Source: Neotamlana sedimentorum (GTDB taxonomy: Bacteria > Bacteroidota > Bacteroidia > Flavobacteriales > Flavobacteriaceae). From it: a DNA stretch of 64,000 nucleotides. A program made the translations under genes and the position numbers. Location: the NCBI RefSeq assembly GCF_000943565.1, contig NZ_JTDW01000003.1, positions 62,001 through 126,000 on the forward strand, read 5' to 3'. Of the stretch, positions 22,901-38,928 are shown piece after piece; within the stretch, counting starts at the first letter, position 1; every line of letters begins with the position of its first letter. A model generated the notes under the pieces. The model was not told the DNA's origin and did not search any database. It saw only the letters and a program-made list of their open reading frames with translations.

Positions 22901-23107
22901 TTAAGAAACCTTCAATTAGGATATTCACTTTCAGAAGACTTAATAGAAAATTGGGCAGGTATGTCCAGCTGTAGAATTTATTTTCAAGGAGAAAATCTAT
23001 TCTGGTTTACTCCAAGCGATTACATAGGTGCAGATCCTGAGCGTACAGATGTAAATAGAATTCCGGTTCCTACAACGCTGTCTTTAGGTCTTAACATTAA
23101 CTTTTAA
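19946..23107 (+). CDS. susC: SusC-type TonB-dependent outer-membrane transporter (fructan locus)
   Basis: A 1053-residue outer-membrane transporter. A signal peptide (residues 1-22, ending VVQAQ) is followed by a carboxypeptidase-regulatory-like domain (ISGTVTDQADGMPLPGVSIL, about 23-100), a TonB box region (LEEIVVTGYS), the plug (LRGATTLGNNDP-type region, IESVQVLKDASASSLYGARA) and a long beta-barrel ending NINF. With the SusD partner 2 bases downstream it would import fructo-oligosaccharides cut at the cell surface, in a TonB-energised step. The gene lies 12 bases after GH32 in the same operon. The substrate is inferred from GH32, the fructokinase and the regulator. Confidence 0.93.
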   Translation: MKCKKLFLLTLFALLSIVVQAQISGTVTDQADGMPLPGVSILVSGTTQGTATDFDGNYTLENVSGNATLVFSYIGYKTQEIQVNNRSVIDISLVADAAQLEEIVVTGYSRERKVDVTGAITVVELGPTEGVSMSSGSAIQGLQGRVPGVFIEKSGDPTGASSNILIRGATTLGNNDPLFVIDGVPTVRQDVFSSINPSTIESVQVLKDASASSLYGARAGNGVIIVTTKNSAKAAGGEKFKVSINSNISVLSEKQQRYDMLNAQQRGEVLWQASVNDNSDPNSGYGEIYNFDWNGDFNNPVLNSVTVQPFVGGDTNVPAGDTDWQDETYQTGYVYNNEISVSGGTDNSFHLLNVGHLRNTGILKYTGYERISAKLNSNFNLFNNRLRVGVNTQMFTSDETLASPDVGSAPTPGLAISLAPTLPVYDADGNFAGPLGSGYSDRNNSVLMQYINRWDNTDRTTFFGNIWGEFDIIENLTFRTSLGLDYNDYHRKDIETKVSNGFITRSNNRLIHDTSKFTSLVFTNTLNYQLDINDKHKIGVLLGTESIQDDFQSVSAQADGFAVETESFFQLDAATGARTNSGSSTGSRLLSQFGKINYGYEDRYLASFTLRRDGSSRFGPDNRYGVFPAATVGWRISNEEFWKDNDIVNSLKFRAGYGEVGNQTIGDVARFGLFESRYGANQLQATGDTFFFNTFYNVGTAYDLNGNNTGNLPSGFVSIQAANSGLKWETTKEINLGIDFTLFNNVVGSFDYFTRETSDILTIPPIASAIGEGQLRTLNGATTEVKGWELALGYSKTFDNGLSLTVATNFGSFKDEITELPAEVVSAFPGTVDNSIIGHSQFSIFGYKSDGLFQSQADVDSSPTQVPAGRPGGIKFKDLDGNGSVGVEDRDFLGTTLPDLEYGIRIDLAYKNFDLSLFGSGVTGRIGQDPYIFWNNFVQGRENAGLGVLDAWTPTNTNTDVPALTLANNDNRVSDYLFRNNSYFKLRNLQLGYSLSEDLIENWAGMSSCRIYFQGENLFWFTPSDYIGADPERTDVNRIPVPTTLSLGLNINF

Positions 23108-23109
23108 AA

Positions 23110-24870
23110 ATGGTAAACATGAAAAAATATATAAAAACAGTATTAACAGGAATTATGGCAGCATCTGTATTGTTTGCTTGTTCCAAAGACTTTTTAGATT
23201 ACGAACCGGAAGGCGTATTATCTAACGAAAACGTAGCAACTGCAGAAAATGCTGAAGCCTTAGTAGTTGCAGCTTATGCTGGAATTGCCAATGATGATAT
23301 GGTAGGGCCTTTAACCAGTATGTGGGTATATGGTAGTGTACGTTCTGATGATGCCTATAAAGGCGGCGGTGGACGTGGAGATGTTGATGTTGTAGATAGA
23401 TATGAGCAATATAACTTAACTATTGCTGATGACCCATTAGATTGGATGGCACCAAGAACATGGACAAATTATTATGCGGCTATTTCTAGGGCAAACTTTG
23501 CTTTAGATGTTATCAATCAAATTCCAGATGCAGATTACGCAGATAAAACAACAAGACAAGCAGAACTTAGATTTTTAAGAGCGCATTCTCATTTTGTATT
23601 AAAACTATTATTTAAAAAGATTCCTTACATCACCGAAGGTTTAACTCAAGATGAAATTTTACAGATTTCAAATGTTATAGACAATAATGCTTTATGGGAT
23701 AAAATTGCAGATGATTTCTTATTTGCTTTTAATAATTTACCACAGGCACAAGATCAAGTTGGTAGAGCTGATAGAAATGCAGCAGCAGCTTATTTAGCAA
23801 AATTACGTTTATATCAAGCCTACGAGCAAAACGATACGCATCAAGTAACTAACATTAACGCTACTCGTTTACAGGAAGTGATAGATTATGCAGATGAAGT
23901 AACAGGAACATTAGAATCAGATTACGGAAATAATTTTTTAGTTGATTTTGATAATGGTGTAGAGTCTATTTGGGCAGCTCAATTTTCAATAAATGATGGA
24001 ACAACAGTTGGTAGAGTTAGCTTTGTTACTGGGTTAAATTCTCCTCACGGAACAGGTTTATATGGTTGTTGTGGCTTCCACTTAGCAAGTCACAATATGG
24101 TAAATGCGTTTAAAACAGATGTTGTTACTGGTTTACCATTATTAGATACATTTAATGATACTAATATATTTGACGTAGTTGATGCTAATGGAGAAACATC
24201 TCTAGCTCCGGGTATTACTTTAGATCCTAGAATTGACCATACTGTTGGAATCCCTGGTCGTCCTTTTAAATATCGTAATACTGTGAATGAAGCTGGTGAT
24301 ATGATTTATAACTTTAGTTGGGCAAGAGACCCAGGTGTTTATGGTTATTTTGGAAATATGAAAGAACAACAAGCACCAGATTGTTCATGTTATGTAAAAG
24401 AAGGACCGTTTGTAGGAACATCTAAAAATATAGAATTTATTAGATATGCCGATGTGCTTTTATTTAAAGCAGAAGCTTTAATACAAATGGGGCAAGTGGA
24501 TGCAGGTGTAACTATAATTAACGAAATTAGAGCTCGCGCAGCGGCTAGTACACAAAGACAGTTGGATGCTGGCGCGTCAGACTTATATAACGTGGGTATG
24601 TATCCTATGGGAATGTCTAAAGAAGAGGGTATAAAAGCCCTAATGTTTGAAAGACGTTTGGAGTTTGGTATGGAAGGGCCTAGGTTTTTTGATTTAGTAC
24701 GATGGGGCATAGCAGAGCAAGTGCTTAATGCTTATTTAGCTGTAGAGAAAACAAGAAAAGATTTTCTTTCTAATGCTCAGTTTACAGCAGGGAGAGATGA
24801 ATATTATCCAATTCCACAAAGAGAAATTGATTTTACAGGAGGATTGTATGAGCAAAACCCTGGGTACTAG
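23110..24870 (+). CDS. susD: SusD/RagB-family surface glycan-binding lipoprotein (fructan locus)
   Basis: A 586-residue lipoprotein that forms the lid of the SusC transporter. The lipobox is VLFACSKDF, and DFLDYEP after it is the common SusD N-terminus. Helical TPR-like segments include 'KTTRQAELRFLRAHSHFVLK', and the chain ends with the SusD C-terminal block 'FEMRRLEFG'-like LMFERRLEFGMEGPRFFDLV. The start is either 23110 (MVNMKK) or the ATG at 23119 (MKK), and the latter gives a more usual signal peptide. It begins 2 bases after SusC. A strong hairpin follows the stop codon and may set the dose of the downstream kinase. Confidence 0.93.
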   Translation: MVNMKKYIKTVLTGIMAASVLFACSKDFLDYEPEGVLSNENVATAENAEALVVAAYAGIANDDMVGPLTSMWVYGSVRSDDAYKGGGGRGDVDVVDRYEQYNLTIADDPLDWMAPRTWTNYYAAISRANFALDVINQIPDADYADKTTRQAELRFLRAHSHFVLKLLFKKIPYITEGLTQDEILQISNVIDNNALWDKIADDFLFAFNNLPQAQDQVGRADRNAAAAYLAKLRLYQAYEQNDTHQVTNINATRLQEVIDYADEVTGTLESDYGNNFLVDFDNGVESIWAAQFSINDGTTVGRVSFVTGLNSPHGTGLYGCCGFHLASHNMVNAFKTDVVTGLPLLDTFNDTNIFDVVDANGETSLAPGITLDPRIDHTVGIPGRPFKYRNTVNEAGDMIYNFSWARDPGVYGYFGNMKEQQAPDCSCYVKEGPFVGTSKNIEFIRYADVLLFKAEALIQMGQVDAGVTIINEIRARAAASTQRQLDAGASDLYNVGMYPMGMSKEEGIKALMFERRLEFGMEGPRFFDLVRWGIAEQVLNAYLAVEKTRKDFLSNAQFTAGRDEYYPIPQREIDFTGGLYEQNPGY

Positions 24871-24912
24871 TTTTAATAAAAAAATTAAGTTTGTTTTTTT
24901 AGTTTGTTGATA

Positions 24913-24954
24913 AACTCCAGGAGTATTTAAATTTTGTTAAGTGCTTCTGGAGTT
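24913..24954 (+). promoter_or_regulatory. Intercistronic hairpin between susD and fructokinase gene
   Basis: AACTCCAGGAG (24913-24923) pairs with CTTCTGGAGTT (24944-24954), 11 base pairs with one wobble and a 20-base loop. There is no long T run after it, so it may be an mRNA-stabilising or partial-termination element. A comparable hairpin follows susD of the second locus. Confidence 0.5.
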
Positions 24955-24970
24955 ATTTAAAAATAAAATA

Positions 24971-25855
24971 ATGGTAAAAATTACTTGTTTTGGAGAAATA
25001 TTATGGGATGTGTTTCCCACTCATAAAAAAATTGGAGGAGCTCCTTTAAATGTGGCGAGTAGATTACAATCATTCAATCAAAACGTGACTATGATTAGTG
25101 CTGTTGGAAAAGGAGAAAATGGAGTGAAAATTATGCAATATCTTAAAGATTGTGGTATTAATACAAGTTGTGTTCAGGTACATGATGAATATAAAACAGG
25201 AAAAGTAAAAGTGATGCTAAATGATAAAGGCTCGGCATCTTATGACATCAAATACCCAAGAGCTTGGGACAAAATCAGATTAACAGAAGTGAATAAAAAA
25301 GCTGTAAAAAGCTCGGATGCATTTGTTTTTGGGAGTTTAGTGGCAAGAGATGATAGTTCTAGAAACACCTTATACAGCCTCATAGAGTTAGCGAAATACA
25401 AAATATTCGATTTAAATTTAAGACCACCTTACTATACAAAAGACGTTTTGTTTCATTTAATGGATAAGGCCGATTTTATTAAGTTTAATGATGATGAACT
25501 TTTTGAGGTATGTAAATACATGGGTTCAAAATTTAATTCGCTGGAACAGAATCTTATGTTTATTTCTGAAAAAACAAATACAAAACACATCTGTATAACA
25601 AAAGGGTCGCATGGAGCTGTTTTGCTATACGATAATAAACTATATTACAATAGTGGTTTTCTTGTAAAAGTTATTGATACCGTAGGTGCAGGAGATTCAT
25701 TCTTGGGCACTTTAATCAGTCAATTATTAAATAATATAAACCCTCAAAAAGCAATAGATTTTGCTTGTGCTATAGGGGCATTGGTGGCACAAAGCGAAGG
25801 TGCAAATCCGGTTTTATCGAAATCTGAAATAGATGCTTTTATAAATCCATGTTAA
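24971..25855 (+). CDS. PfkB-family fructokinase
   Basis: A 294-residue cytoplasmic sugar kinase expected to phosphorylate fructose with ATP. The N-terminal ITCFGEILWDVFPTHKKIGG (3-22) contains the substrate-binding signature, and the C-terminal PfkB signature DTVGAGDSF (236-244) has Asp242 as catalytic base. An in-frame ATG ten codons upstream (24941) lies inside the intercistronic hairpin, and the MVKITCFGE start at 24971 matches the family, so I chose it. It is the last gene of the fructan operon. The same arrangement of PfkB kinase, porter, GH32 and sensor is known from the Bacteroides fructan locus. Confidence 0.9.
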   Translation: MVKITCFGEILWDVFPTHKKIGGAPLNVASRLQSFNQNVTMISAVGKGENGVKIMQYLKDCGINTSCVQVHDEYKTGKVKVMLNDKGSASYDIKYPRAWDKIRLTEVNKKAVKSSDAFVFGSLVARDDSSRNTLYSLIELAKYKIFDLNLRPPYYTKDVLFHLMDKADFIKFNDDELFEVCKYMGSKFNSLEQNLMFISEKTNTKHICITKGSHGAVLLYDNKLYYNSGFLVKVIDTVGAGDSFLGTLISQLLNNINPQKAIDFACAIGALVAQSEGANPVLSKSEIDAFINPC

Positions 25856-26082: not shown

Positions 26083-26230
26083 TGCTTTACTTTGGCCAAT
26101 AAAGTAATACTATAATTAAAAAAACAGGATTAACGCTCAAAAATTTATCAAGATTATTTAAGCTTAACTTTAAAACTTCTTAAATTGTATTTATGTAATA
26201 AACAACCAGCTTTTTTTGAGTGCCACTTTT

Positions 26231-29017
26231 ATGAAAATTCATTTAAAAACAATATTTACTTTTTTCATTTTTTTGCTAGTTAATACCAAGTTAATTGCAC
26301 AGGAATTACCACCTATTCAAAAATTTTCGCCAGTAGATTACAATGCAGATAGCCAAAACTGGATGCTTTCTCAAGCATCAAACAATTTTATATATGCTGC
26401 TAATAATAAAGGATTGCTTGAATATAACGGACATAATTGGGTTGTTTACCCATCTCCAAACAATACTATATTTAGATCGGTTAAGGCTATTAAAGACAAA
26501 GTTTATACGGGATGTTATTCTGATTTTGGATTTTGGTATAAAAATAAATTTGGAGTATTAGAATACAAGTCATTAGCGTCAAAACTTGACAACAAAGTGT
26601 TAATTGATGAGCAAATTTGGGATATTATTGAATTTAATGAATGGGTAACTTTTCAAGCCAGAAAACACATCTATTTTTACAACACAATTACCAAAGCGTT
26701 TAAAACAATAACCTCAAAAAATTTAATTTATAAAATTTTTAAAATTGATAATCGAATCTATTATCATGTAGCTAATGAAGGTTTATATACCATTGAAGAT
26801 GGCAAACCAAAACTATTAGTTAATGATGCCATTACATTAAGCGATAGGGTTATTAACGTTTTTGAAAATAATAAAAGCCTATTTCTTTTAACTAGAAAGT
26901 CTGGTTTTTACAGAATAGAAGCTAACTCATTAATTCCTTGGCGTATTCCGGCTTTAGATACCCTAAAAAATACAAGTGTGTTTAGTGCTATACAATTACA
27001 CGATAAAAGCTTTATGCTTGGGACTATTTCTAAAGGTATTTTGCATTTAACCAAAGATGGACACATTGATTATATAATAAATCAAAAAAAAGGACTTAGC
27101 AACAATACGGTATTATCTTTATTCGAAGACAGTAACCATAATGTTTGGGCTGGTTTAGACAATGGTTTAGATTGTATAAATGTAACATCGCCAATTAAAA
27201 CATTTATAGATTATGACGGTGTTTTAGGAACTGTTTATACAACAAAAGTATTTAAAGATTATTTGTATTTAGGTACAAACCAAGGGTTGTTTTATAGAAA
27301 ATTAGGAGCTTTAAATGATGATTTTAAATTTATAAAAGGTACTGCTGGACAAGTTTGGAGTCTATATAATTATAATGATGAATATTTACTATGTGGACAT
27401 CATCTTGGTGGGTTTTTAGTAACTAAAGACGAGGTTAAACAAATAAGCAAGCATTTTGGAGTCTGGAATTTCCAAAAGGTTCCAAACCAGGAGAATTTAT
27501 TGTTACAGGGTAATTACGACGGTATTTATGTTTTGGAAAATACAAACAACAACTGGAAATTAAGAAATAAAATAAAGGGCTTTAATAATTCTTCTAGGTA
27601 TTTTGAAATTACCAACTCCAATCAAATATGGGTAAATCATGAATACAAAGGCGTCTTTAAACTAACGTTAAATGACAGCTTAACCAAAGTAGTAAATGTA
27701 ACTAAAGAACAAACATTACCCAAAGGCAAAAATTCTAGTTTAATATCGTACAGAGATACTATTGTATATATGTCTAACAGTGGTGTTTTTAAACTTAACG
27801 ATAGTTTAGGGACCTTTAAAAAAGACTCAACACTAAGTAAACTGGCTGTAGAAAACCAATACATTTCTGGAAAAATGGTAGTCGATTTAAACAAAAAACT
27901 ATGGATGTTTTATAAAGAGAGTTTAAGTTTTATAGAAAACGATAATCTTACAAATAATGTTAAAATAACCAATTTACCGATACCTTCTAAATTTAGAAGA
28001 GGTGCTTTAGGATTTGAAAACATAGAAAATATTGCTCATAACAATTATATTTTAGGAACCACCAATGGCTATTTAAAACTGAATCTTGATAACACGTCTT
28101 ACAAAAATAATTACTATGTCCATTTAAACTCAATTTCAAATACCAATCTAAATCAAAATACAACAACAAGGATATCGCTTAAGGATTCAGGTGATTTTAA
28201 TTATAAATATGGTATACTAACATTCAATTTTTCGGTGCCAGAATATGAAAAATATTTAGATGTTAAATACCAATTTAAATTAAATGGAAATATGAATGAA
28301 TGGAGTGAATGGTCCAATAAAGCCGAAATAAGTTTCGAAAACCTACCATATGGAGATTACCATTTTGAAGTAAAAGCAAAAGTAGGCAACCAGCTATCTA
28401 GCAATATAGCGTCTTATAAATTTACTATAAATAAGCCTTGGTTTATATCTAATTTAGCTTGGTGTTTATACTTTTTACTACTTATTGCTATTGCTATTCT
28501 AACACATAGTATTTATAAAAATTATTATAATAAAATGCTTAAAAACAAAGAATTAGAAAATAAGCAGATTATTATGCAAATGAAAAATGAAAAATTAAAC
28601 CAAGATATTGAGAATAAAAACAGAGAATTAGCAATATCTACCATGAGCATTATTAAAAAAAATAGGGTTTTAAACAAAATAAAAAAAGAATTAAAGAAAA
28701 GTAAAAACGCTAATAATGCCGAAGCTATAAAACTTGTAGAAAGCAATTTAAACGACTCCAAAGATTGGTCCTTTTTTGAACAAGCATTTAATAATGCAGA
28801 TAAAGACTTTTTAGAAAAAATTAAACAGGTACACCCAGATTTAACACCAAACGATTTGCGTTTTTGTGCCTACTTGCGTCTCAATTTATCTTCAAAAGAA
28901 ATGGCACCTTTATTAAATATCTCGGTTAAAAGTGTTGAAACTAAACGTTACCGTTTAAGAAAAAAACTTGGTTTAGAGCACGACAATGGGCTTGTTAACT
29001 ATATCTTAAAGTTCTAG
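26231..29017 (+). CDS. Beta-propeller/Y_Y_Y sensor with LuxR-type DNA-binding domain (regulator of second PUL)
   Basis: A one-component membrane regulator of about 928 residues from the ATG at 26231; an ATG at 26216 would add five residues before the signal peptide. After the signal (MKIHLKTIFTFFIFLL) come propeller repeats (residues about 30-650, e.g. GLSNNTVLSLFEDSNHNVWA), then a Y_Y_Y domain (KYQFKLNGNMNEWSEWSN). A membrane helix (FISNLAWCLYFLLLIAIAIL, about 740-760) and a coiled coil follow. A C-terminal LuxR-type HTH ends the chain (LSSKEMAPLLNISVKSVETK). There is no kinase or receiver. Such proteins usually regulate an adjacent polysaccharide locus in flavobacteria. Here that is the SusC gene 300 bases downstream. 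Confidence 0.88.
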   Translation: MKIHLKTIFTFFIFLLVNTKLIAQELPPIQKFSPVDYNADSQNWMLSQASNNFIYAANNKGLLEYNGHNWVVYPSPNNTIFRSVKAIKDKVYTGCYSDFGFWYKNKFGVLEYKSLASKLDNKVLIDEQIWDIIEFNEWVTFQARKHIYFYNTITKAFKTITSKNLIYKIFKIDNRIYYHVANEGLYTIEDGKPKLLVNDAITLSDRVINVFENNKSLFLLTRKSGFYRIEANSLIPWRIPALDTLKNTSVFSAIQLHDKSFMLGTISKGILHLTKDGHIDYIINQKKGLSNNTVLSLFEDSNHNVWAGLDNGLDCINVTSPIKTFIDYDGVLGTVYTTKVFKDYLYLGTNQGLFYRKLGALNDDFKFIKGTAGQVWSLYNYNDEYLLCGHHLGGFLVTKDEVKQISKHFGVWNFQKVPNQENLLLQGNYDGIYVLENTNNNWKLRNKIKGFNNSSRYFEITNSNQIWVNHEYKGVFKLTLNDSLTKVVNVTKEQTLPKGKNSSLISYRDTIVYMSNSGVFKLNDSLGTFKKDSTLSKLAVENQYISGKMVVDLNKKLWMFYKESLSFIENDNLTNNVKITNLPIPSKFRRGALGFENIENIAHNNYILGTTNGYLKLNLDNTSYKNNYYVHLNSISNTNLNQNTTTRISLKDSGDFNYKYGILTFNFSVPEYEKYLDVKYQFKLNGNMNEWSEWSNKAEISFENLPYGDYHFEVKAKVGNQLSSNIASYKFTINKPWFISNLAWCLYFLLLIAIAILTHSIYKNYYNKMLKNKELENKQIIMQMKNEKLNQDIENKNRELAISTMSIIKKNRVLNKIKKELKKSKNANNAEAIKLVESNLNDSKDWSFFEQAFNNADKDFLEKIKQVHPDLTPNDLRFCAYLRLNLSSKEMAPLLNISVKSVETKRYRLRKKLGLEHDNGLVNYILKF

Positions 29018-29314: not shown

Positions 29315-32300
29315 ATGAAATTTAAAATTTGTTATCAAAAAACTAAAGTACTGTTCTTTATATTGTGTTTTTCTATTTCATTAGGAACCTTTGCACAATC
29401 GGAACAAACAATAACAGGTACTGTGCTATCGGCATCAGATAACATGCCTTTACCAGGAGCAACAGTGCTTATTAAAGGAACTAGCAATGGCGTATCCACA
29501 GATTTCGACGGAAAATTTTCATTAACCTTAAACAATAACACAACGGTATTAGTTGTTTCGTATGTTGGTTATAAAACAAAGGAAACTCCAATAACTTCCA
29601 ACCAAATAACTATTCTATTAGAGCAAGATGAAAACATTCTAGACGAAGTTGTAGTGGTAGGTTACGGAACTCAAAGAAAAAGCGATATAGTAAATGCCGT
29701 TGCAGTAACCGATTTAGAAAAAGCAACACTTTCTCCAACCTCAGACGTGAATGAAATGTTGAGAGGTAGAATTGCCGGCCTTCAAGTTAATGTGGGCGGC
29801 GGTACATTAAGACCAGGTGGAACTTCAGACATAATTTTTAGAGGACAAGGTTCTATTGAAGGTAATGTAAGCGCCATTTATGTTGTTGATGGTATAATAA
29901 GAGACGATGGTATTGAGGATATAGATTCAGACGATATTGAGTCTATAGAATTTCTTAAAGATGCATCTGCACAAGCCATTTACGGATCTAGAGGGGCTAA
30001 CGGTGTAGTATTAATAACTACTAAACGTGGTAAAGCAGGTAAAGTAAGTGTAAACTACCACGGTTTTCTTACGTCCAAAACTATAGAGCGAAATTTTGAT
30101 GTTTACAGCGGTGAAGAATTTGCTCAATTAAGACGAGAAGCCGTTAGAACAAACAGAGCAGATGACTCTTACCCTAATGATGAAGATATTTTTTCTGAAA
30201 TAGAATTAGAAAACATAGCAAATGACAATTTTGTTGATTGGGAAGATGAATTAATGAGAAACGGATTTGTAAACAGTCAAGCTATAAGCGTTAGTGGCGG
30301 TACAGAATTAACTAAAGTATTTGGTAGTATTAACTATTTTAAAGAAGAAGGATTAATACCTACATCTAGTTATACAAGAAAAACTTTACGCTTAAACGTA
30401 GATCAAAAAATAAGTGATAAACTATCTGTTAATTTCGATTTAAACCTTTTAAATGATAATACAGACCTAGCTGCAAACGTAAACGTTATTACAACTTCAC
30501 CTTTAGGTAGCGCCTATAACGAAGACGGCAGTATTACGCGTTTTCCAAGTGGCGAGGAATTATCTGCAGTAAATCCACTTTGGAATTTAAATGAGCAAAT
30601 TAACGAAGAAACAGGAAATGACTTTGTAATTAACATTACTCCTATCTGGAAAATCACAAACAACTTAACCTACCAATTAAAAGCGAACATGACTAGGCGT
30701 ACTTCAGAAAGAGGACAGTACCAATCGTCTTTAAGTTCTGCCGGAGATGATGTAGGTGGCATTGCACGAATAGATAGCCGACTAAGAGAATCGTTTTTAG
30801 TAGAAAATATTTTAACCTATGACAAGGAGATAAATGTAAATAATAAGCTTAATGTTACGCTTGTTCAATCTGCACAAGAAGATGATGTAAGAAGAACTTT
30901 TACAGAAGGCCAAGGGTTTACAAACGAAGATAACGGTTATAATGGTATTGCAAGTGCTATTGGAAACATAAGTGTGGAGCGCGATTCAGATAAAATCAAT
31001 TATCTATCCTACATGGCCAGAGCACGATACACTTTAATGGATAAATATTTATTTACAGGAACAATGAGAGCAGATGGCTCATCATTAAACGGTGTAGGAA
31101 AAGAATGGAGCTATAACCCTGCAGGTTCTTTTGCTTGGAAAATGCATAATGAAAGCTTCTTAGAAAATGTAAATGCTATACAAGAATTAAAATTAAGATT
31201 AAGTTACGGGTCCTTAGTAAACGATTTAGGAATTCCTTATACATCGCTTTTCACTGCCGATCCAGAACCTTATATTTTTGATAGCGAGTCTGCATCTGGT
31301 TTTTCTCCTTCAACAATTTTACCTAATCCAGATTTAGAATTTGAAAGAATTACAACTGCAAATATTGGTTTAGATTTTTCTATGTTCAATAAATTGTTAA
31401 CCGGTAATATTAACTGGTACGATGCAAGAACCAAAAATCTTCTGTTAAAAAGAGCTGTGCCTTCTACAACAGGATATACCTTTACATACTTTAATGCAGG
31501 AGAACTACAAAACACAGGTATTGAGCTAGGTTTAACAGCTAATATTATAAATAACAACAATTTTAAATGGACGGTTTCTACAAACTGGTCTAATAATAAA
31601 AATAAACTTATTGAACTCTATACCGATGGTAATGGCGATCAAATAACTAAAGATGATACGTACAACTATTATGTTGGTCAGCCTGTAGGTGTAATTTATC
31701 AATATGCATTCGATGGGATTTGGCAAGAAGGCGACGATTTTGAAAATGCGGCACAAGCTAATCCAGAATCCTCACTTACTCAAGATAACTTAAGTCCAGG
31801 TGATATTAAAATTAAAGATGTTAACGGGGTCGATGATGAAGGAAATATAATATCTGGTCCAGATGGAAAAATTACTCCAGAAGACCGTGTGTTTATAGAT
31901 CCAAACCCAGATTGGTTCGGGTCGTTCTCAACAACTTTTGAGTATAAAGGTTTCGATTTGTTAGTAGATTTTTATGTTGTTGAAGGAGCTACAAAAATAA
32001 ACCCTTTTTTATCTGATTTTAATAATGGAGGCACAATATCTGGTAAACTTAATGGTGTTGAAGTAGATTATTACACACCAGAAAACCCTTCTAATTCGTT
32101 TCCTAGAGCAAATTTCGATTCTACACCATTATACTTAAATGCTTTAGCTGTTAAAGATGCTTCTTACGTACGATTAAGAACGTTAAGTTTAGGTTATACG
32201 GTACCAGAAATAGCCTCAAACAAGTTAAACTTAAACATGATTAGGTTTTATGTAACAGGAACAAACTTATTTACAAATACAGATTATATTGGCTATAGCC

Positions 32301-32392
32301 CAGAGGTAAATATAAGACCAACTTTTTCTAGTGCAGATACAGGGTATCCAGATGCAAAAAGTTTCACATTTGGGGTAAGAGTTAAATTTTAA
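29315..32392 (+). CDS. susC: SusC-type TonB-dependent transporter (beta-glucan locus)
   Basis: A 1025-residue outer-membrane transporter. The signal peptide ends near residue 28 (ISLGTFAQ). The carboxypeptidase-regulatory-like domain (ITGTVLSASDNMPLPGATVL) spans about 32-110, the TonB box region is ILDEVVVVGYGTQRKSD, and the plug contains IRDDGIEDIDSDDIESIEF and ASAQAIYGSRGANGV. The barrel ends in FGVRVKF. The SusD gene starts 11 bases downstream. It probably imports oligosaccharides of a beta-glucan, judged from the GH16 and GH3 enzymes in the same operon. It is only distantly similar to the fructan SusC, so the two are not a recent duplication. Confidence 0.93.
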   Translation: MKFKICYQKTKVLFFILCFSISLGTFAQSEQTITGTVLSASDNMPLPGATVLIKGTSNGVSTDFDGKFSLTLNNNTTVLVVSYVGYKTKETPITSNQITILLEQDENILDEVVVVGYGTQRKSDIVNAVAVTDLEKATLSPTSDVNEMLRGRIAGLQVNVGGGTLRPGGTSDIIFRGQGSIEGNVSAIYVVDGIIRDDGIEDIDSDDIESIEFLKDASAQAIYGSRGANGVVLITTKRGKAGKVSVNYHGFLTSKTIERNFDVYSGEEFAQLRREAVRTNRADDSYPNDEDIFSEIELENIANDNFVDWEDELMRNGFVNSQAISVSGGTELTKVFGSINYFKEEGLIPTSSYTRKTLRLNVDQKISDKLSVNFDLNLLNDNTDLAANVNVITTSPLGSAYNEDGSITRFPSGEELSAVNPLWNLNEQINEETGNDFVINITPIWKITNNLTYQLKANMTRRTSERGQYQSSLSSAGDDVGGIARIDSRLRESFLVENILTYDKEINVNNKLNVTLVQSAQEDDVRRTFTEGQGFTNEDNGYNGIASAIGNISVERDSDKINYLSYMARARYTLMDKYLFTGTMRADGSSLNGVGKEWSYNPAGSFAWKMHNESFLENVNAIQELKLRLSYGSLVNDLGIPYTSLFTADPEPYIFDSESASGFSPSTILPNPDLEFERITTANIGLDFSMFNKLLTGNINWYDARTKNLLLKRAVPSTTGYTFTYFNAGELQNTGIELGLTANIINNNNFKWTVSTNWSNNKNKLIELYTDGNGDQITKDDTYNYYVGQPVGVIYQYAFDGIWQEGDDFENAAQANPESSLTQDNLSPGDIKIKDVNGVDDEGNIISGPDGKITPEDRVFIDPNPDWFGSFSTTFEYKGFDLLVDFYVVEGATKINPFLSDFNNGGTISGKLNGVEVDYYTPENPSNSFPRANFDSTPLYLNALAVKDASYVRLRTLSLGYTVPEIASNKLNLNMIRFYVTGTNLFTNTDYIGYSPEVNIRPTFSSADTGYPDAKSFTFGVRVKF

Positions 32393-32403
32393 AAAAAGAA
32401 ATA

Positions 32404-34011
32404 ATGAATACAGAAAATTTATATAAAAAATTAAAAGGATCAGGTTTGCTTCTTATACTATTAATTTTTGCAGTTTCTTGCGAAGACTTTTTAGAAGAAA
32501 ACCCAAGCACATCAATTGATGCAGATTATATTTATACTACAGAAGAAGGTTTAAAATCTGGAGTTGTAAGCTTATATAAATTCGAACGAGATCGTTACCA
32601 AACAAGTACAGAAGATTTTATGGGTGCTGTTCTTATGTCTTCTAGAAGTGATTTAGCGTTTAGCAGAACAGGTTATACGGGTTTAATGGGTAGATACGAA
32701 AGAGGTGTTTCGCCAGTAGACCAAGGTGCTAACTTTGTTTCTTCACTTTTTTGGAAACACTTTTATAATATGACTAATAAAGCTACAGCTATTATAAATG
32801 CAGCAGAAATTATTGAAGACATTGATGAAGACGTGAAAAACCAAGTACTTGCCGAAGCTAAATATTTTAGAGCACATTCTTATTTTTATTTATATAGAAT
32901 GTTTAATAATATTTATATTAATACCGAAACTGTTACTGTTGAAAATGCATTTGATGTTGTAAACGACAAATCTTCTGAAGAAGACATTTTTGCCCTTATT
33001 AACAGTGATTTGGATTTTGCAGTAGAACATTTAGAATGGACAGATACCTTTGGACGCGTTACAAAAGGAACCGCTAAACATGTGAAAGCAAAGGTTGCCA
33101 TGTGGCAAGGAGATTGGACTGAAGCCAAAAATCAAGCTTTAGATGTTATTGAAGATCCAGACTCACCACACAGCTTAGTATCTAGCACATCGGAGGTTTT
33201 TGCTGGCGACAGAAACAACTCGGAATCTTTATTCGTAATTCAAGCCGAAGACGATTTATTGGGTGGTGGTAACACAACTATGATAAATGCTAACTACGTA
33301 ACTCAATACTTTCATATTTCTGGTATTGAAGCAAATATAGAACAAGGCGGCAGAGGTTTTTCCCGTATTTTACCTAACCTATATTTATTAAATCTTTTAG
33401 CTGAAGATCCTAATGACACTAGAGATGATGATACTTACTTCAGACTTAAATATTATTATACTTCTGGAGACAGAATTGGCGAAGAATTAGACGACTATGC
33501 ACCAATAACAGACTTAGATAACCCAAGCAGTAATTACACAACCTATTACCAAAGAATGCATCCATCATGCATAAAATTTGCCCAGGATGACGATAATCCA
33601 GACTCTTACTTAAATAGAAGTAATATTACAGTTTATAGATTAGCAGAAACATACTTAATTGCAGCCGAAGCTATAATGAGATCTACAGGAGATCCTTTAC
33701 CTTATATTAATGCAGTTAGAACTCGTGCCGGTGCCCAACCAGTATCATCTGTAGATCAACAAACTATTTTAGATGAACGCGCCAGAGAATTAGCCTTTGA
33801 AGGGCAGCGCTGGTTTACCTTAAAACGTATGGGACAAGAGGTTATAGACTTTCAAATAACAAATTACGCAGGCGACGGAGAATACTTTCCTGCTAATTTA
33901 GGCTCTAAAGATCCAAGAACAAATTGGCAACCACACTATATTAATTGGCCAATTGCCCAAATAGATTTAGATTTATTAGGTCCTAATTACCCTCAAAACG
34001 ATGGCTATTAA
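32404..34011 (+). CDS. susD: SusD/RagB-family lipoprotein (beta-glucan locus)
   Basis: A 535-residue surface lipoprotein, partner of the SusC gene 11 bases upstream. The lipobox is IFAVSCEDFLEENPS, with the Cys as lipid anchor. Helical repeats follow (VLAEAKYFRAHSYFYLYRMF), and the C-terminal family block is 'ILDERARELAFEGQRWFTLK'. It should capture glucan fragments at the surface. An almost perfect hairpin of 15 base pairs lies just after the stop codon, before the enzyme genes. Confidence 0.93.
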   Translation: MNTENLYKKLKGSGLLLILLIFAVSCEDFLEENPSTSIDADYIYTTEEGLKSGVVSLYKFERDRYQTSTEDFMGAVLMSSRSDLAFSRTGYTGLMGRYERGVSPVDQGANFVSSLFWKHFYNMTNKATAIINAAEIIEDIDEDVKNQVLAEAKYFRAHSYFYLYRMFNNIYINTETVTVENAFDVVNDKSSEEDIFALINSDLDFAVEHLEWTDTFGRVTKGTAKHVKAKVAMWQGDWTEAKNQALDVIEDPDSPHSLVSSTSEVFAGDRNNSESLFVIQAEDDLLGGGNTTMINANYVTQYFHISGIEANIEQGGRGFSRILPNLYLLNLLAEDPNDTRDDDTYFRLKYYYTSGDRIGEELDDYAPITDLDNPSSNYTTYYQRMHPSCIKFAQDDDNPDSYLNRSNITVYRLAETYLIAAEAIMRSTGDPLPYINAVRTRAGAQPVSSVDQQTILDERARELAFEGQRWFTLKRMGQEVIDFQITNYAGDGEYFPANLGSKDPRTNWQPHYINWPIAQIDLDLLGPNYPQNDGY

Positions 34012-34033
34012 ACCTTAACAACACCCTATTTAA

Positions 34034-34069
34034 AACACCTAAGGACAACTACAATTGTCCTTAGGTGTT
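34034..34069 (+). terminator. 15-bp perfect hairpin after susD (partial terminator or processing element)
   Basis: AACACCTAAGGACAA (34034-34048), loop CTACAA, TTGTCCTTAGGTGTT (34055-34069), with no mismatch. It is followed by an A/T-rich tract ending in six T (about 34085). It lies between susD and the enzyme genes. It could terminate part of the transcripts, so that SusCD is made in excess, or stabilise the susCD message. Confidence 0.65.
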
Positions 34070-34112
34070 ATAATTATTTATATTTTTTAAACTTATAATT
34101 CTGTATTTCTTT

Positions 34113-35702
34113 ATGAGCATTTGCAAAACCATATGTATTTCAACATTAATTTTTATAAGTCTTATGGCTTGTATGTCGAGCTCAAAAAAAAATATAGCGT
34201 TTGCTAATAATGTTGTAATTGCACACCGAGGTGCATGGAAAACTAATCAACTACCACAAAACTCTATTGCGGCACTAAAAAAAGCCATTCAGTTAGGTTG
34301 TACAGGATCAGAATTTGATGTTCGGATAACTAAAGATAGCGTGCTTGTTGTAACTCACGATAAAGAGTATAATTCTTTAGTTATTGAAGAATCTACGTAT
34401 GCCGAATTATCAAAATTTAAACTTTCAAATGGAGAAACCTTACCAACATTAAAAAACTACATTTCTGCCGGTATTAAAAATAACGATTCTACTGGTTTAG
34501 TTTGCGAATTAAAACCAGCAAAAACCAAAGAAAAAAATCTGCTTATAGCAGAACAAACTATAAAATTAGTAAAAGAACTTAAGGCCGAAAACCACATTCT
34601 ATCCTACATCAGCTTTAGTTATAGCATATTAAAAAAAATAAAGGAACTCGATCCTAATGCTAAAACACAGTATTTAGACGGGTCTAAATCACCTAGCCAA
34701 TTAAAAGAAGATGGAATTTCAGGGTTAGACTACTTAGTTTACAAATACAAAATACATCCAGAATGGATATCTAGTGCTAAAGAAAATAACTTAAAACTAA
34801 ATGCGTGGGTCGCCAATAAGGACCATGATATAAATTGGCTTTTAGCTAATAATTTTGATTATATCACAACAGATGAGCCAGAACTTACTTTTAAAAAAAT
34901 AAAAGAAAGTCCAACCAATAAAGGATACCAATTAGTTTGGAGCGACGAGTTTAATTATAAAGGCAAACCAGACAGTACCAAATGGGCTCATGATTATGGT
35001 TTTTTAAGCAATAGAGAAAAACAATACTATACAGACAGCTTAAAAAATGTTAGAGTTGATAATGGGCATTTAATTATTGAAGCGCATAAAGAAAAAATAG
35101 CAAACAAAGACTTTAACAACCCCGAAATTAAAAAGAAAAGTTGGATAAAATATATAACAGAAATTGATACTGCCCAATACACCTCGGCACGATTAAACAC
35201 CAAAGGATTAGCCTCATGGAAATATGGCAGAATAGAAGTTAAAGCTAAACTGCCAAAAGGTGTTGGCTTATGGCCCGCTATATGGATGTTAGGTAATAAC
35301 AGAAAAGAAGTGGGTTGGCCAGAATGCGGAGAAATAGACATTATGGAACATGTTGGTTTTAACCCAGATTCTATATTTGGCACTATACACACCAAAGCCT
35401 TCAATCATTTAAAAGGCACACAGCGGGGTAAAAAGATTTTTATTGATAAACCTTATAACAAATTCCATGTATTTGCAATAGAATGGACTCCCGAAAAAAT
35501 CGATTTCATCTTGGATGGTGTGGTATATAATCATATTGAAAACGAACATAAAACAACTGCAGAGTGGCCTTTTGATCAAGAATTTTATTTAATTCTAAAT
35601 GTTTCAGTAGGCGGTATGTTAGGCGGAAGAAAAGGCATTGACGATAGCGTTTTTCCGCAGCAAATGCTAATTGATTATGTTAGGATTTTTCAAAAAAAAT
35701 AG
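34113..35702 (+). CDS. Fusion of glycerophosphodiester phosphodiesterase domain and GH16 beta-glucanase
   Basis: A 529-residue two-enzyme envelope protein. The N-terminus (ISLMACMSSS) is a lipoprotein signal. Residues 33-265 form a GDPD domain with all key residues: HRG at 38-40, Glu67 and Asp69 in GSEFDVR, His82-Asp83 in THDK, and Glu132 in CELKP. Residues about 275-529 form a GH16 domain (YQLVWSDEFNYKGKPDSTKW) with the catalytic GEIDIMEH, Glu407 as nucleophile and Glu412 as acid/base, and WPAIWMLG before it. GH16 members with this motif cleave beta-1,3 or mixed beta-glucans. GDPD releases glycerol phosphate from diesters. The frame is continuous, so the fusion is real in this sequence. Action on a phosphoglycerol-bearing glucan is inference. 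Confidence 0.9.
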   Translation: MSICKTICISTLIFISLMACMSSSKKNIAFANNVVIAHRGAWKTNQLPQNSIAALKKAIQLGCTGSEFDVRITKDSVLVVTHDKEYNSLVIEESTYAELSKFKLSNGETLPTLKNYISAGIKNNDSTGLVCELKPAKTKEKNLLIAEQTIKLVKELKAENHILSYISFSYSILKKIKELDPNAKTQYLDGSKSPSQLKEDGISGLDYLVYKYKIHPEWISSAKENNLKLNAWVANKDHDINWLLANNFDYITTDEPELTFKKIKESPTNKGYQLVWSDEFNYKGKPDSTKWAHDYGFLSNREKQYYTDSLKNVRVDNGHLIIEAHKEKIANKDFNNPEIKKKSWIKYITEIDTAQYTSARLNTKGLASWKYGRIEVKAKLPKGVGLWPAIWMLGNNRKEVGWPECGEIDIMEHVGFNPDSIFGTIHTKAFNHLKGTQRGKKIFIDKPYNKFHVFAIEWTPEKIDFILDGVVYNHIENEHKTTAEWPFDQEFYLILNVSVGGMLGGRKGIDDSVFPQQMLIDYVRIFQKK

Positions 35703-35708
35703 AGTAAA

Positions 35709-36557
35709 ATGAAACATTATTTAAAAGTACTATGCATATCTGTTTTAGCTTTTTCTAGCTGTAAAACTGCAATAAAAAGTCAAAACCTTAGTGTAATGAC
35801 CTATAACATACGTTTAGATGTTGCCTCCGATGGTGAAAATGCATGGAAAAATAGAAGCCAATTTTTAAGTTCGCAAGTATTATTTTATAGCCCAGATATT
35901 TTAGGCGTTCAAGAAGCTCGCCCTAACCAAATGGCAGATTTAAAATCTTCGCTTTTAGATTATAAAGCCTTCGGAATTGGTCGCGATGGTGGAGAAAAAG
36001 GAGAGTTTTCATCTGTTTTTTACAACTCTAAAAAAGTTAAAGTAGAGCACGAAAACACGTTTTGGTTGTCTAAAACACCAAATAAAGTATCAAAAGGTTG
36101 GGATGCCGCCTACCCTAGAATTTGCACTTACGGCCTGTTTACCATACTTAGTAATAACCAAAAAATATGGGTGTTTAATACGCATTTAGATCATAAAGGA
36201 GCAGAAGCTCAAAAACAAGGTATGCAATTAATTCTTACTAAAGTAGCACAGCTTAATACTCAAAATTATCCGGTTATAATTATGGGAGATTTTAATGTGG
36301 AACCTAGTAGCGATTTAATTAAAGATATAAAGCTTACTATGCAGGACTCTAAGAACATTGCTAAAGTAACTTTTGGTCCCAACGGAACTTTTAATGGGTT
36401 TAAATTTGAAGCTCCTGTTACACGAAGAATTGATTATATAATGCTTTCAAAAAATTCTGGAATTCAGGTTGAAAAGTATGGCGTTTTATCTAGCAACGTT
36501 AATTTAAAATACCCTTCAGACCATTTCCCTGTATATGTTCAGCTTAGCTTAGAATAA
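35709..36557 (+). CDS. Endonuclease/exonuclease/phosphatase-fold lipoprotein of the PUL
   Basis: A 282-residue metal-dependent phosphoesterase. The N-terminal SVLAFSSCKTA is a lipoprotein signal. The fold motifs are all there: VMTYNIRLD (Asn), LGVQEARPNQM (Glu), FNTHLDHKG (His), IIMGDFNVEP (Asp and Asn), and the C-terminal SDHFPVY (Asp-His). Family members cleave phosphomonoesters or phosphodiesters of sugars, lipids or nucleic acid. As a lipoprotein starting 6 bases after the GDPD-GH16 gene, it probably acts on phosphate groups of the imported polymer. It could also be a phosphatase finishing the GDPD product. The precise substrate is unknown. Confidence 0.85.
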   Translation: MKHYLKVLCISVLAFSSCKTAIKSQNLSVMTYNIRLDVASDGENAWKNRSQFLSSQVLFYSPDILGVQEARPNQMADLKSSLLDYKAFGIGRDGGEKGEFSSVFYNSKKVKVEHENTFWLSKTPNKVSKGWDAAYPRICTYGLFTILSNNQKIWVFNTHLDHKGAEAQKQGMQLILTKVAQLNTQNYPVIIMGDFNVEPSSDLIKDIKLTMQDSKNIAKVTFGPNGTFNGFKFEAPVTRRIDYIMLSKNSGIQVEKYGVLSSNVNLKYPSDHFPVYVQLSLE

Positions 36558-36612
36558 ATACTGTTAAACAACCATTAAACACGCTTTAAAAGACCTATTT
36601 AACACATTTCAA

Positions 36613-38928
36613 ATGAAAAAAATCTTATTCTATATTCCCATAGTCTTGCTTGTTATATTTCTAACTAGTCTTAAAAACCCTAGTTTAAAAGAGACTTTAG
36701 CAACCTCAAACAATGATAAGATTATAGAACAAAAAGTAGATTCTGTTTTAGCATTAATGCATCTAAATGAAAAAATTGGTCAATTAGTACAATATAGCGG
36801 AAAATGGGATGCTACCGGACCTTCATCTTCAAATAACGACCAATTTAAACTAGAAAAACTAAAAAAAGGTGAAGTTGGGTCTATGTTAAATATTGTTTCT
36901 GCGGCCACTACGCGCGAAACTCAAAAAATTGTTATGGATAATTCACGACTCAAAATTCCTTTAATTTTTGGGTATGATGTTATTCATGGTTATAAAACCA
37001 TTTTCCCTATTCCTTTAGGAGAAACTGCTAGTTGGGATTTAAATATTATAAAAAAAACAGCAGAAATTGCTGCTAAAGAAACAGCTGCATCGGGTATACA
37101 CTGGACTTTTGCACCAATGATTGATGTTTCTAGAGATGCCCGTTGGGGAAGAATTATGGAAGGTGCTGGAGAAGATGTTTACTTAAACGAAGTGGTTGGA
37201 GTAGCACGTATAAAAGGGTTTCAAGGAAACAATTTATCCGACACAAATACCATAGCTGCCTGTGCTAAGCATTTTGCAGGTTACGGTTTCGCCGAAGCTG
37301 GACGAGATTATAACACGGTTAATGTTGGCGAATTTGAATTACACAATACCATTTTACCGCCATTTAAAGCAGCTGCTAAAGCAGGTGTTGCAACATTTAT
37401 GAATGCATTTAACGAAATTGATGGCATTCCTGCAACCGGACACAAAGTGCTACAACGCGATATTTTAAAAGGAGACTGGAATTGGGACGGATTTATAGTT
37501 TCAGATTGGGGTTCTATTGGAGAAATGAGAAATCATGGCTATGCTAAAGATAAAAAACATGCCTCTGAAATTGCAATGAATGCTGGTAGCGATATGGATA
37601 TGGAATCGTATGCCTATCAATCTAGTTTAGAAAGCTTACTAAAAGAAAACAAAATAACTTTAGCACAGTTAGATGAGGCCGTAAAAAGAGTGTTACGAGT
37701 AAAATTCAAATTGGGCTTATTTGATGACCCATATAAATACTGTAATGAGGAGCGTGAAAAAAACAATGTATTTACGAAATCCCATTTGGCTATTGCACGC
37801 GATGCTGCAAAAAAATCTATTGTACTGTTAAAAAATGAAACTAATATTTTGCCTTTATCAAAAAACATTAAAAGTATTGCAGTTATTGGTCCGTTAGCAA
37901 ACGATAAAGACACGCCACTAGGAAATTGGAGAGGAAAAGGAGAGCACAACTCAGCCGTTTCTTTTTTAGAAGGTATTAAAAACGCAGTAGGAAACAACAC
38001 TACAATATATTATGAAAAAGGTGTTGATTTAACAGTACCCAACATAAAACCAGGTAGCAATCAGTTTTTACATCCTCTAGAATTTAACAATACAGACCAA
38101 TCAGGAATTGCTGCTGCGGTTGAAGCTGCAAAAAAAGCAGACGTTATATTATTAGCAATTGGTGAAAATGCCTACCAAACTGGAGAAGGTAGAAGTCAAT
38201 CTAATATTGGTTTATTAGGGCTTCAAAACGAATTATTAAAAGCAATATACCAAGTGAATAAAAACGTGGTTATTGTTTTAATGAATGGTAGACCAATGGA
38301 TATTTCTTGGGCAGCAAACCACATACCTTCCATTTTAGAATGCTGGTTTTTAGGTTCTGAATCTGGAAATGCCATTGCCGATGTAATATTTGGAGATTAC
38401 AATCCTTCCGGGAAATTACCGGTTTCTTTCCCACATAACGTTGGTCAAGAACCATTATATTACAACCAAAAAATGACGGGAAGACCATCAAGCCCAAAAC
38501 ATGTTACATATTCGGGTTATCAAGATGCTCCTAAAACAGCTTTATATCCTTTTGGATATGGTTTAAGCTATACAACTTTCGAGTATAAAAACCTTATACT
38601 TGATAAAACCGAAATGCCAACTAATGGAGAAATAAAAGTATCGGTAGATGTAACCAATACAGGAAATAGAGATGGCGAAGAGGTTATTCAACTTTACATT
38701 AGAGACCTAATTGGTAGTATAACTCGACCTATAAAGGAGTTAAAAGGTTTTAAAAAAATAATGATTGCATCTGGTGAAACCAAAACAATTCATTTTACTA
38801 TTAACGCAGAAACTTTACAGTTTTACACTAGTAATAAAAAGTGGGAAGTAGAACCGGGTGATTTTAATGTATGGGTAGGTGGCGACTCCTCAACAACCTT
38901 AAAAACATTATTTACGGTTGTGGATTAA
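36613..38928 (+). CDS. bglX: GH3 beta-glucosidase, BglX type
   Basis: A 771-residue periplasmic beta-glucosidase that releases glucose from oligosaccharide ends. An N-terminal signal (FYIPIVLLVIFLTSL) exports it. The GH3 TIM barrel contains 'AACAKHFAGYGFAEAGRDYN' and the nucleophile Asp298 in IVSDWGSIGE. The second alpha/beta domain follows (VLLKNETNILPLS), then a fibronectin-III-like domain (TNTGNRDGEEVIQLYIRD). The length and order match BglX. It ends the operon, 55 bases after the phosphoesterase gene. No strong terminator is visible behind it. With GH16 it would complete breakdown of a beta-glucan. Confidence 0.92.
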   Translation: MKKILFYIPIVLLVIFLTSLKNPSLKETLATSNNDKIIEQKVDSVLALMHLNEKIGQLVQYSGKWDATGPSSSNNDQFKLEKLKKGEVGSMLNIVSAATTRETQKIVMDNSRLKIPLIFGYDVIHGYKTIFPIPLGETASWDLNIIKKTAEIAAKETAASGIHWTFAPMIDVSRDARWGRIMEGAGEDVYLNEVVGVARIKGFQGNNLSDTNTIAACAKHFAGYGFAEAGRDYNTVNVGEFELHNTILPPFKAAAKAGVATFMNAFNEIDGIPATGHKVLQRDILKGDWNWDGFIVSDWGSIGEMRNHGYAKDKKHASEIAMNAGSDMDMESYAYQSSLESLLKENKITLAQLDEAVKRVLRVKFKLGLFDDPYKYCNEEREKNNVFTKSHLAIARDAAKKSIVLLKNETNILPLSKNIKSIAVIGPLANDKDTPLGNWRGKGEHNSAVSFLEGIKNAVGNNTTIYYEKGVDLTVPNIKPGSNQFLHPLEFNNTDQSGIAAAVEAAKKADVILLAIGENAYQTGEGRSQSNIGLLGLQNELLKAIYQVNKNVVIVLMNGRPMDISWAANHIPSILECWFLGSESGNAIADVIFGDYNPSGKLPVSFPHNVGQEPLYYNQKMTGRPSSPKHVTYSGYQDAPKTALYPFGYGLSYTTFEYKNLILDKTEMPTNGEIKVSVDVTNTGNRDGEEVIQLYIRDLIGSITRPIKELKGFKKIMIASGETKTIHFTINAETLQFYTSNKKWEVEPGDFNVWVGGDSSTTLKTLFTVVD

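Follow-up and report, generated by a model that had tools for sequence, protein, structure and literature searches.

Within the window (the whole stretch of 64,000 nucleotides of Neotamlana sedimentorum DNA that was analysed), an operon on the forward strand runs from a regulator through a SusC/SusD pair to a GDPD-GH16 fusion, an EEP-family protein and a GH3 enzyme (Table 1). The SusC/SusD pair, the regulator and the carbohydrate-active enzymes on one strand mark it as a polysaccharide utilisation locus (PUL). The intergenic gaps are 11 bp (SusC-SusD), 101 bp (SusD-fusion), 6 bp (fusion-EEP) and 55 bp (EEP-GH3). A stem-loop lies in the second of these, and a stem run of at least 9 was present in the 130 bases 5' of the fusion gene in 34 of the 36 loci with both a fusion and SusC, a raw count without a shuffled control. 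A sigma-70 scan gave no signal (64 sites vs 60.2 expected). The earlier note had placed a GH3 beta-glucosidase downstream in the same SusCD operon, and the BglX equivalog match agrees with this; the nearest solved relatives of the GH3 enzyme are mixed and do not indicate its specificity. Nor did the nearest structure indicate a ligand for the SusD-like protein, which has no close solved relative (best 7e-21).

Table 1. Features of the operon, with positions in the window.
Feature	Position	Strand	Basis or remark
Y_Y_Y / LuxR-type regulator	26216..29017	+	933 aa from the listed TTG start; in-frame ATG 15 bases in
SusC/RagA TonB-linked outer-membrane transporter	29315..32392	+	TIGR04056, 771.8 bits (cut-off 368)
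SusD-like lipoprotein	32404..34011	+	PF07980, 101 bits (cut-off 23.1)
Stem-loop between SusD and fusion gene, 15-bp stem	34034..34069	+	Fold about -23 kcal/mol
GDPD-GH16 fusion, probable lipoprotein (C20)	34113..35702	+	Single uninterrupted ORF, 529 aa
GDPD domain, residues 38-257	34224..34883	+	Pfam match and invariant catalytic residues
GH16 laminarinase-type domain, residues 272-529	34926..35699	+	Pfam match, solved relatives, conserved residues
EEP-family phosphatase/phosphodiesterase (predicted)	35709..36557	+	Exo_endo_phos, 60.9 bits (cut-off 24.5)
GH3 beta-glucosidase, BglX type	36613..38928	+	NF011678 BglX equivalog, 769 bits (cut-off 666)

The fusion gene encodes one chain that matches both Pfam GDPD (PF03009; residues 38-257, 83.9 bits, cut-off 23.6, profile positions 1-243 of 244) and Pfam GH16 (residues 349-508, 83.6 bits, cut-off 22). 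The GDPD motifs are H38-R39-G40 (HRG), E67/D69 (ExD), H82-D83 (HD) and a later glutamate, E132, and the GH16 part carries GEIDIMEH with E407, D409 and E412 (the ExDxxE nucleophile/acid motif). The earlier claim of a single chain with both sites complete is thus borne out. We aligned the window protein with 31 of the 36 long matches L005-L040 (L006, L021, L029, L035 and L040 were left out). Residues H38, R39, E67, D69, H82, E132, E407, D409 and E412 were invariant in all 32 fusions, as was G40, while D83 and the lipoprotein-type cysteine C20 were each kept in at least 90%. By profile and active-site motif the first domain is therefore predicted to belong to the GDPD family, and the second, which matches the solved laminarinase 3iln at 1e-75, to the laminarinase-type GH16 enzymes. 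The GlpQ/UgpQ glycerophosphodiester phosphodiesterases share the GDPD family and catalytic residues with the fusion, and many relatives are linked to glycerol genes; however, the fusion falls far under the curated NCBIfam equivalog cut-offs (51 vs 264 bits and 29.7 vs 254 bits), is joined to GH16 and lies within a PUL.

The architecture as such is not new. The nearest solved relative, PDB 7ww4/7wwc (released 2023-02-15), is deposited as a multidomain beta-1,3(4)-glucanase and has the same GDPD-GH16 order, with 46-47% identity to the window fusion over about 505 columns and a TM-score of 0.87 by query and 0.96 by target; 7wwc contains laminaritriose. Our literature search met no paper describing 7ww4/7wwc, no report of the GDPD function, operon or glycerol link, and no paper on GDPD-GH16 fusions. 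The 7WWC entry does appear in a glycan-modelling paper (PMC12448869).

The gene that follows the fusion probably encodes an EEP-family phosphatase, judging from its Exo_endo_phos match and from residues conserved among 37 sequences. N33, E69, H159, D194, N196, D271 and H272, which we take to be the catalytic residues, were at least 95% conserved. By contrast, C18, the counterpart of C20 in the fusion, was present in only 23 of the 37, and the label 'lipoprotein' is therefore weaker for the EEP protein than for the fusion. Thus, of the 'EEP lipoprotein' of the earlier note, the family assignment stood and the lipoprotein status did so less firmly. The nearest solved EEP-family relatives include 4c1r (1.8e-43), deposited as a mannosyl-6-phosphatase and hence a sugar phosphatase. 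The 4c1r protein presumably stems from a Bacteroides yeast-mannan PUL; its operon differs from that of the window, and any such specificity of the window EEP is only putative.

We then compared gene neighbours across 100 loci, 50 of which carry a fused ORF (45 after removal of 5 duplicates); besides the duplicates, L041, L042, L146, L147, L148 and L158 were left out of the count since they have no GDPD anchor. The GH16-only comparison set comprised 40 loci (L043-L084 without L045, with L077 dropped for want of an anchor); this set is taxonomically mixed and a few loci are short (shortest 3.2 kb), and a taxon-matched set (n=15) was therefore added. For the unfused L029, L156 and L157, SusC flags rest on a distant gene within the locus. 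An EEP gene lies near 31 of the 45 fused loci but near none of the 40 GH16-only loci (Fisher p 1e-12). GlpF shows the same pattern (17/45 vs 0/40, Fisher p 4e-6), and GlpK is present in 16; the glp genes of the 17 GlpF-bearing loci are upstream in 14 and downstream in 3. No same-strand glpF lies within 11 kb in the remaining 28 fused loci, 5 of which are shorter than 18 kb. On the GDPD tree the glp trait needs a minimum of 9 changes, a rough figure from a quick search that left 31 of the 87 inner branches open and counted L032, which carries a second, unfused GDPD gene besides its fusion, as unfused. Among 397 genomes of the family, GlpK was found in 20 of the 28 with a fusion-query match (at 1e-75, a few being to the GH16 domain only) vs 131 of 369 others (p 4e-4), and 10 of these 20 pairs lie within 15 kb by listed positions. 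In the taxon-matched GH16-only loci from GlpK-bearing genomes, GlpK adjoins in 0 of 15.

Other neighbours were less specific. GH3 is near 23/45 fused vs 15/40 GH16-only loci (p 0.28) and does not set the fused loci apart, and a regulator homologue lies near 30 of the 45. A sulfatase-like gene lies near 9/45 fused vs 2/40 GH16-only loci (p 0.05), which counts against a glycerophosphorylated glucan as substrate, since no known glycerophosphoglucan explains a sulfatase. Both SusC and EEP are absent from eight fused loci (L031, L034, L036, L037, L039, L183, L201 and L203), and in L023, which lacks EEP, a calcineurin-like phosphoesterase follows the fusion. L153 keeps glpKF, regulator, SusCD, GDPD and EEP but lacks neighbouring GH16 and GH3 genes, and tblastn showed no remnant of GH16 there; GDPD and EEP can therefore act without a glucanase. 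L149 likewise has GDPD without GH16. In L176 a GDSL-type hydrolase lies beyond GH3. The database search that the earlier note had proposed thus found the fusion to recur, often with EEP and glpKF, although the architecture proved to be known already. Lipid-degradation genes as consistent neighbours, which that note would have held against its reading, were not seen among the neighbours typed with a limited query set, many ORFs being untyped.

A parallel arrangement exists on another backbone. Ten loci (L159, L160, L184-L186 and L188-L192) combine SusCD, as in the window operon, with GH144, and 9 of them carry GH3; the L188 GH144 protein has a solved endo-beta-1,2-glucanase as a match (5e-181). 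Their GDPD proteins are of the same subfamily as that of the window fusion (47-56% identity), but they are unfused, the backbone enzyme differs and there is no EEP. Seven of the ten also have an ORF of 233-237 aa, whose assignment as an alpha/beta hydrolase comes from L188 only. Among the 81 genomes of a second genus, GDPD occurs in 16 of 29 with GH144 vs 1 of the 52 that lack it (p 3e-8). Of the 18 GDPD matches in this genus, 14 are same-strand neighbours of GH144 at a distance of 3.4-4.1 kb; 13 of the 29 GH144-bearing genomes have no GDPD match at 1e-60.

Canonical laminarin PULs typically have a PKD protein between SusD and GH16, and no PKD gene is present from 29315 to 38928. The window genome has a separate laminarin-type locus, L217, which shares SusC/SusD, GH16 and GH3 with the window operon but has a PKD protein, a PKD-GH16 protein and a second GH16 (order PKD-GH16-GH3-GH16); the ORFs of L217 include neither GDPD nor EEP. 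Because of this second locus, and because EEP is linked to the fused loci, we reject a plain laminarin PUL as a sufficient reading. No glycerophosphodiester catabolic cluster was found in the window genome: GlpF, GlpK and GlpD were found neither nearby nor elsewhere, the sole MIP channel found is AqpZ, the best GlpK match is 26% identical, and there is no GlpD match. Glycerol use by that route is therefore unlikely, and the organism, as far as gene content indicates, probably cannot use glycerol via GlpF/GlpK/GlpD.

How, then, might a predicted phosphodiesterase have come to be joined to a laminarinase-type domain? The operon might serve laminarin degradation and, at the same time, the salvage of glycerophosphodiesters set free when algae lyse (head groups of lipids, for example glycerophosphoethanolamine or glycerophosphoglycerol); on this view the domains are fused since their substrates co-appear and not because both bonds sit on one molecule. 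The GH16 domain is indeed closest to laminarinases, 7wwc holds laminaritriose, the glpKF link suits any glycerophosphodiester, and L153 and L149 retain GDPD without GH16. Nevertheless, the presence of a laminarin-type PUL elsewhere in the window genome, the intact state of both active sites in the fusions, the pairing of the same GDPD subfamily with an endo-beta-1,2-glucanase, and the lack of a lipase in the window operon (other loci were typed with a limited query set, and L176 has the GDSL-type hydrolase) make this unlikely in our estimation. That the fusion is a laminarinase whose GDPD domain has no more than a binding or structural role is hardly credible: although the PDB title of the homologue speaks only of a multidomain glucanase, six residues of the GDPD active site show no variation across 32/32 fusions, which led us to reject a dead module, and EEP accompanies most fused loci.

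The nature of the phosphodiester also has to be weighed. Beta-1,3/1,6-glucan with phosphocholine or phosphoethanolamine is of the Bradyrhizobium type, and GDPD-fold enzymes accept several head groups, so that GDPD could free the amino alcohol or its phosphate from such side groups. Phosphoethanolamine is also a known substituent of E. coli OPG (passages of PMC10514313). However, the recurrent partners among the typed neighbours, glpF, glpK and glpD, handle glycerol, and we consider this reading quite improbable. That the target is teichoic acid or another glycerophosphate polymer, from which GH16 and GH3 would take off glucose decorations or a linked glucan, seems very improbable: GlpQ, another GDPD, does degrade wall teichoic acid starting at the free end (PMC7086022), but GH16 and GH144 enzymes cut glucan backbones as endo-beta-glucanases and the window operon contains no peptidoglycan enzyme.

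Collectively, the association with EEP and glpKF, the GDPD-GH144 loci and the separate laminarin-type PUL support, by comparison of gene content, a partnership in which GDPD, an endo-beta-glucanase and a phosphatase would act together on a glycerol-yielding substrate. Such substrates occur in bacteria: glycerol-phosphorylated beta-1,3-glucan is a known product of P. aeruginosa PA14 (passages of PMC2997053), cyclic beta-(1,2)-glucan carries glycerophosphoryl groups at C6 (PMC7569799), and E. coli OPG carries phosphoglycerol (PMC10514313). We lean, if by no means firmly, towards reading the operon as a SusCD locus for the use of glycerophosphorylated beta-(1,3)-glucan, the glucan most likely being bacterial (the NdvB-like or periplasmic-glucan kind).

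From the observed anatomy of the locus, its conserved active sites and its gene associations, we infer the substrate, the order of steps and the cell location. The GH16 domain would cut the beta-1,3 chain while the GDPD domain joined to it would cleave the phosphodiester of the glycerophosphoryl side groups. EEP would then hydrolyse the leftover phosphomonoester, whether this sits on glycerol phosphate or at position 6 of glucose, and GH3 would complete breakdown of the gluco-oligosaccharide, leaving glucose, glycerol and phosphate as products. Many relatives could take the glycerol up through GlpF and metabolise it with GlpK and GlpD. Side groups derived from phosphatidylglycerol would be sn-1-glycerophosphate, which GlpD is not known to use; were the groups of this origin, a phosphatase with GlpF/GlpK, and not a glycerol-3-phosphate transporter, would be the expected set. 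The earlier note had proposed the same division of labour among GDPD, GH16, EEP and GH3; its partnership and glycerol link agree with the comparisons above, but GlpK, GlpD and GlpF were not found in the window genome itself.

Where marine bacteria carry loci for beta-1,3-glucan, these are usually taken to serve the breakdown of laminarin. We tentatively suggest that Bacteroidota, marine and other, may possess a dedicated, widespread pathway for eating glycerophosphorylated bacterial beta-glucans, in which one GDPD subfamily is paired or fused with a backbone-matched endo-glucanase (GH16 for beta-1,3; GH144 for beta-1,2) together with SusCD, a phosphatase and a glycerol branch. Biofilm beta-1,3-glucans bind aminoglycosides, according to passages of PMC2997053, and such a pathway, if true, would be a source of enzymes that remove glycerophosphate from bacterial glucans, including these. 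It would also mean that bacterial glucan, and not only algal laminarin, serves as food, in a separate flow of carbon and phosphorus with a countable gene signature.

The fusion is a single chain of 529 residues that contains both GDPD and GH16, as the earlier note had claimed together with a full GDPD site. The protein resembles solved laminarinases from residue 272 onward, and AlphaFold returned a confident model (mean pLDDT 90.5, pTM 0.85). Genes for EEP (a phosphatase/phosphodiesterase) and GH3 follow at short distances, again in agreement with that note, while a regulator, SusC and SusD lie upstream on the same strand. Between SusD and the fusion gene lies a strong stem-loop of 15 bp; the 130 bases 5′ of the fusion fold with a stem run of at least 9 in 34 of 36 fused SusC-bearing loci, a count made with no shuffled control. 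The stem-loop might act as an attenuator or be a site of processing, keeping expression of the enzymes lower than that of SusCD.

Features of the fusion locus and its surroundings (nucleotide positions refer to the window)
Feature	Position	Strand	Description
Fusion gene	34113-35702	+	GDPD and GH16 in one ORF
GDPD domain	residues 38-257 of fusion	+	complete, over curated cut-off
GH16 domain	residues 349-508 of fusion	+	Pfam, over curated cut-off
EEP gene	35709-36557	+	6 bp 3′ of fusion gene
GH3 gene	36613-38928	+	55 bp 3′ of EEP gene
Stem-loop	34034-34069		between SusD and fusion gene
Upstream locus	13900-25855		hybrid two-component regulator with periplasmic sugar-binding domain, SusC, SusD, PfkB kinase
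Tyrosine integrase with arm-binding domain	12036-13247	-	~650 bp before the probable fructan locus

The separate utilisation locus directly upstream is probably for fructan; inspection by eye adds an MFS-like transporter and a GH32-like enzyme to its genes. Further left of the integrase, in L218, are genes that by eye resemble conjugation genes, hence a mobile element may end near the integrase.

The GDPD-GH16 fusion is not unique to the window. Among the best 80 of 344 relatives retained from a genome-contig scan, 36 (L005-L040) matched most of the protein. In 32 aligned fusions (the window and 31 of these loci), no variation occurs at six residues of GDPD or at three acidic residues of GH16, so selection acts on both active sites. 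GDPD and GH16 occupy separate ORFs in L029, L035 and L040; a frame change splits the L040 gene between domains (9965-11573) and a stop interrupts the GH16 part in L035 (9953-11485), and either break may be genuine or reflect a sequencing error. L032 (9974-12432) encodes a fusion directly followed by a second, separate GDPD, which is 54% identical to the window GDPD versus 45% for the fused copy. The architecture is already known from the PDB, where a homologous fusion was deposited as a multidomain beta-1,3(4)-glucanase (7ww4, and 7wwc in complex with laminaritriose). A literature search, limited for subscription journals, found no paper on the fusion or its role; its coupling to a phosphatase, to glycerol genes and to a parallel beta-1,2-glucan system appears to be new.

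The architecture search and neighbour list that the earlier note had proposed were carried out on 100 loci around GDPD or fusion matches (39 named and 61 further). Fifty contained a fused ORF, 45 once duplicates were removed. Counting same-strand genes within 11 kb, EEP was near 31 of the 45 fused loci versus none of 40 GH16-only named loci (p 1e-12), and GlpF near 17 versus none (p 4e-6). SusC was present in 37, a regulator in 30, GlpK in 16 and a phosphatase other than EEP in one. GH3, unlike EEP and glpF, is unspecific for fused loci (23/45 versus 15/40, p 0.28). A sulfatase-like gene was near 9/45 versus 2/40. Loci in which a sulfatase adjoins the fusion, EEP or GH3 are L007, L008, L009, L013, L019, L033, L040, L140 and L155. 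Since the L007 sulfatase (11221-12699) is closest to kappa/iota-carrageenan S1 sulfatases, the substrate may also be sulfated.

Where glpF accompanies the fusion (17 loci), glpD-glpK-glpF precedes the operon in 14 and follows it in three; glpD was found in only four because several stretches stop at glpK. The basis for these names is the set of NCBIfam matches in L007, where GlpK exceeds its cut-off, the channel exceeds the general MIP cut-off only, and GlpD best matches a glycerol-3-phosphate dehydrogenase model under its cut-off (302 versus 360 bits). Across 397 family genomes, a fusion-query match (1e-75) occurred in 28, GlpK in 151 and both in 20, with the two at most 15 kb apart in 10 of these 20; GH16-only loci in nine GlpK-bearing genomes were adjacent to GlpK in 0 of 15 cases. 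Relatives L165, L166, L171-L173 and L177-L180 have a conserved chromosomal glpKF site; judged by flanking ORF sizes, this site seems to hold GDPD and GH16 after glpKF in L151, and GDPD in L029, L156 and L157.

In a second genus, the fusion's GDPD subfamily, mostly unfused, lies ~4 kb from PF10091/GH144, an endo-beta-1,2-glucanase family (the L188 protein matches solved 5gzh at 5e-181). GDPD was found in 16 of 29 genomes with GH144 but in only 1 of the 52 that lack it; 14 of 18 GDPD matches are 3.4-4.1 kb from GH144, and 13 GH144-bearing genomes had no GDPD at the threshold used. Of 10 annotated GH144 loci, 7 carry an ORF of 233-237 residues, typed as an alpha/beta hydrolase in L188 only; it might act as an esterase that removes succinyl groups from beta-1,2-glucans. 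Bacterial beta-1,2-glucans are described as bearing glycerophosphoryl and succinyl groups (PMC7569799; PMC10514313), and glycerol-phosphorylated beta-1,3-glucans are also known bacterial products (P. aeruginosa PA14, PMC2997053). Such reports are the main reason why we prefer a glycerophosphorylated bacterial glucan over laminarin as the likely substrate.

The window genome holds another beta-glucan locus, L217 (SusC, SusD, a PKD protein, PKD-GH16, GH3 and a second GH16), whose layout we take to be that of laminarin loci; the window locus is thus a second, different one. GDPD and EEP are present in the window locus, whereas neither is among the genes of L217.

We infer an order of steps in which SusCD would capture and import the glucan, GH16 cut its chain, GDPD on the same lipoprotein open the phosphodiester, EEP remove the monoester left behind, and GH3 finish degradation. 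Solved relatives of EEP include one deposited as mannosyl-6-phosphatase. A need for a phosphatase step would fit L023, which has a calcineurin-like phosphoesterase where EEP would be, and the more distant loci L206, L207 and L211-L213, in which GDPD-SusC-SusD is followed by a phosphoesterase of a different type (MetallophosN/C by Pfam, typed in L207 only). The operon of these five loci, with its calcineurin-like phosphoesterase, is from another family of the order and perhaps a glycerophosphodiester importer without glucanases. L153, which falls within the fused loci in the tree, keeps glpKF, SusCD, GDPD and EEP with neither GH16 nor GH3 in the locus, hence the phosphodiester half can stand alone; the rival reading of general glycerophosphodiester scavenging is consistent with this too. 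In L204 (6663-11254, minus strand), the neighbours of GDPD are an EEP-like gene and one for a phosphodiester glycosidase (NAGPA).

We favour utilisation of a glycerophosphorylated beta-glucan. Speaking against the glycerol link, a search of the window genome found none of glpF, glpK and glpD, which makes the glycerol branch optional; the sensitivity for GlpK is shown by the 151 other genomes, but the search for GlpD lacked a positive control. No GlpT over cut-off was found in this genome either. The species that carries the window may use GDPD and EEP solely to strip the glucan of its side groups or as a means of obtaining phosphate.
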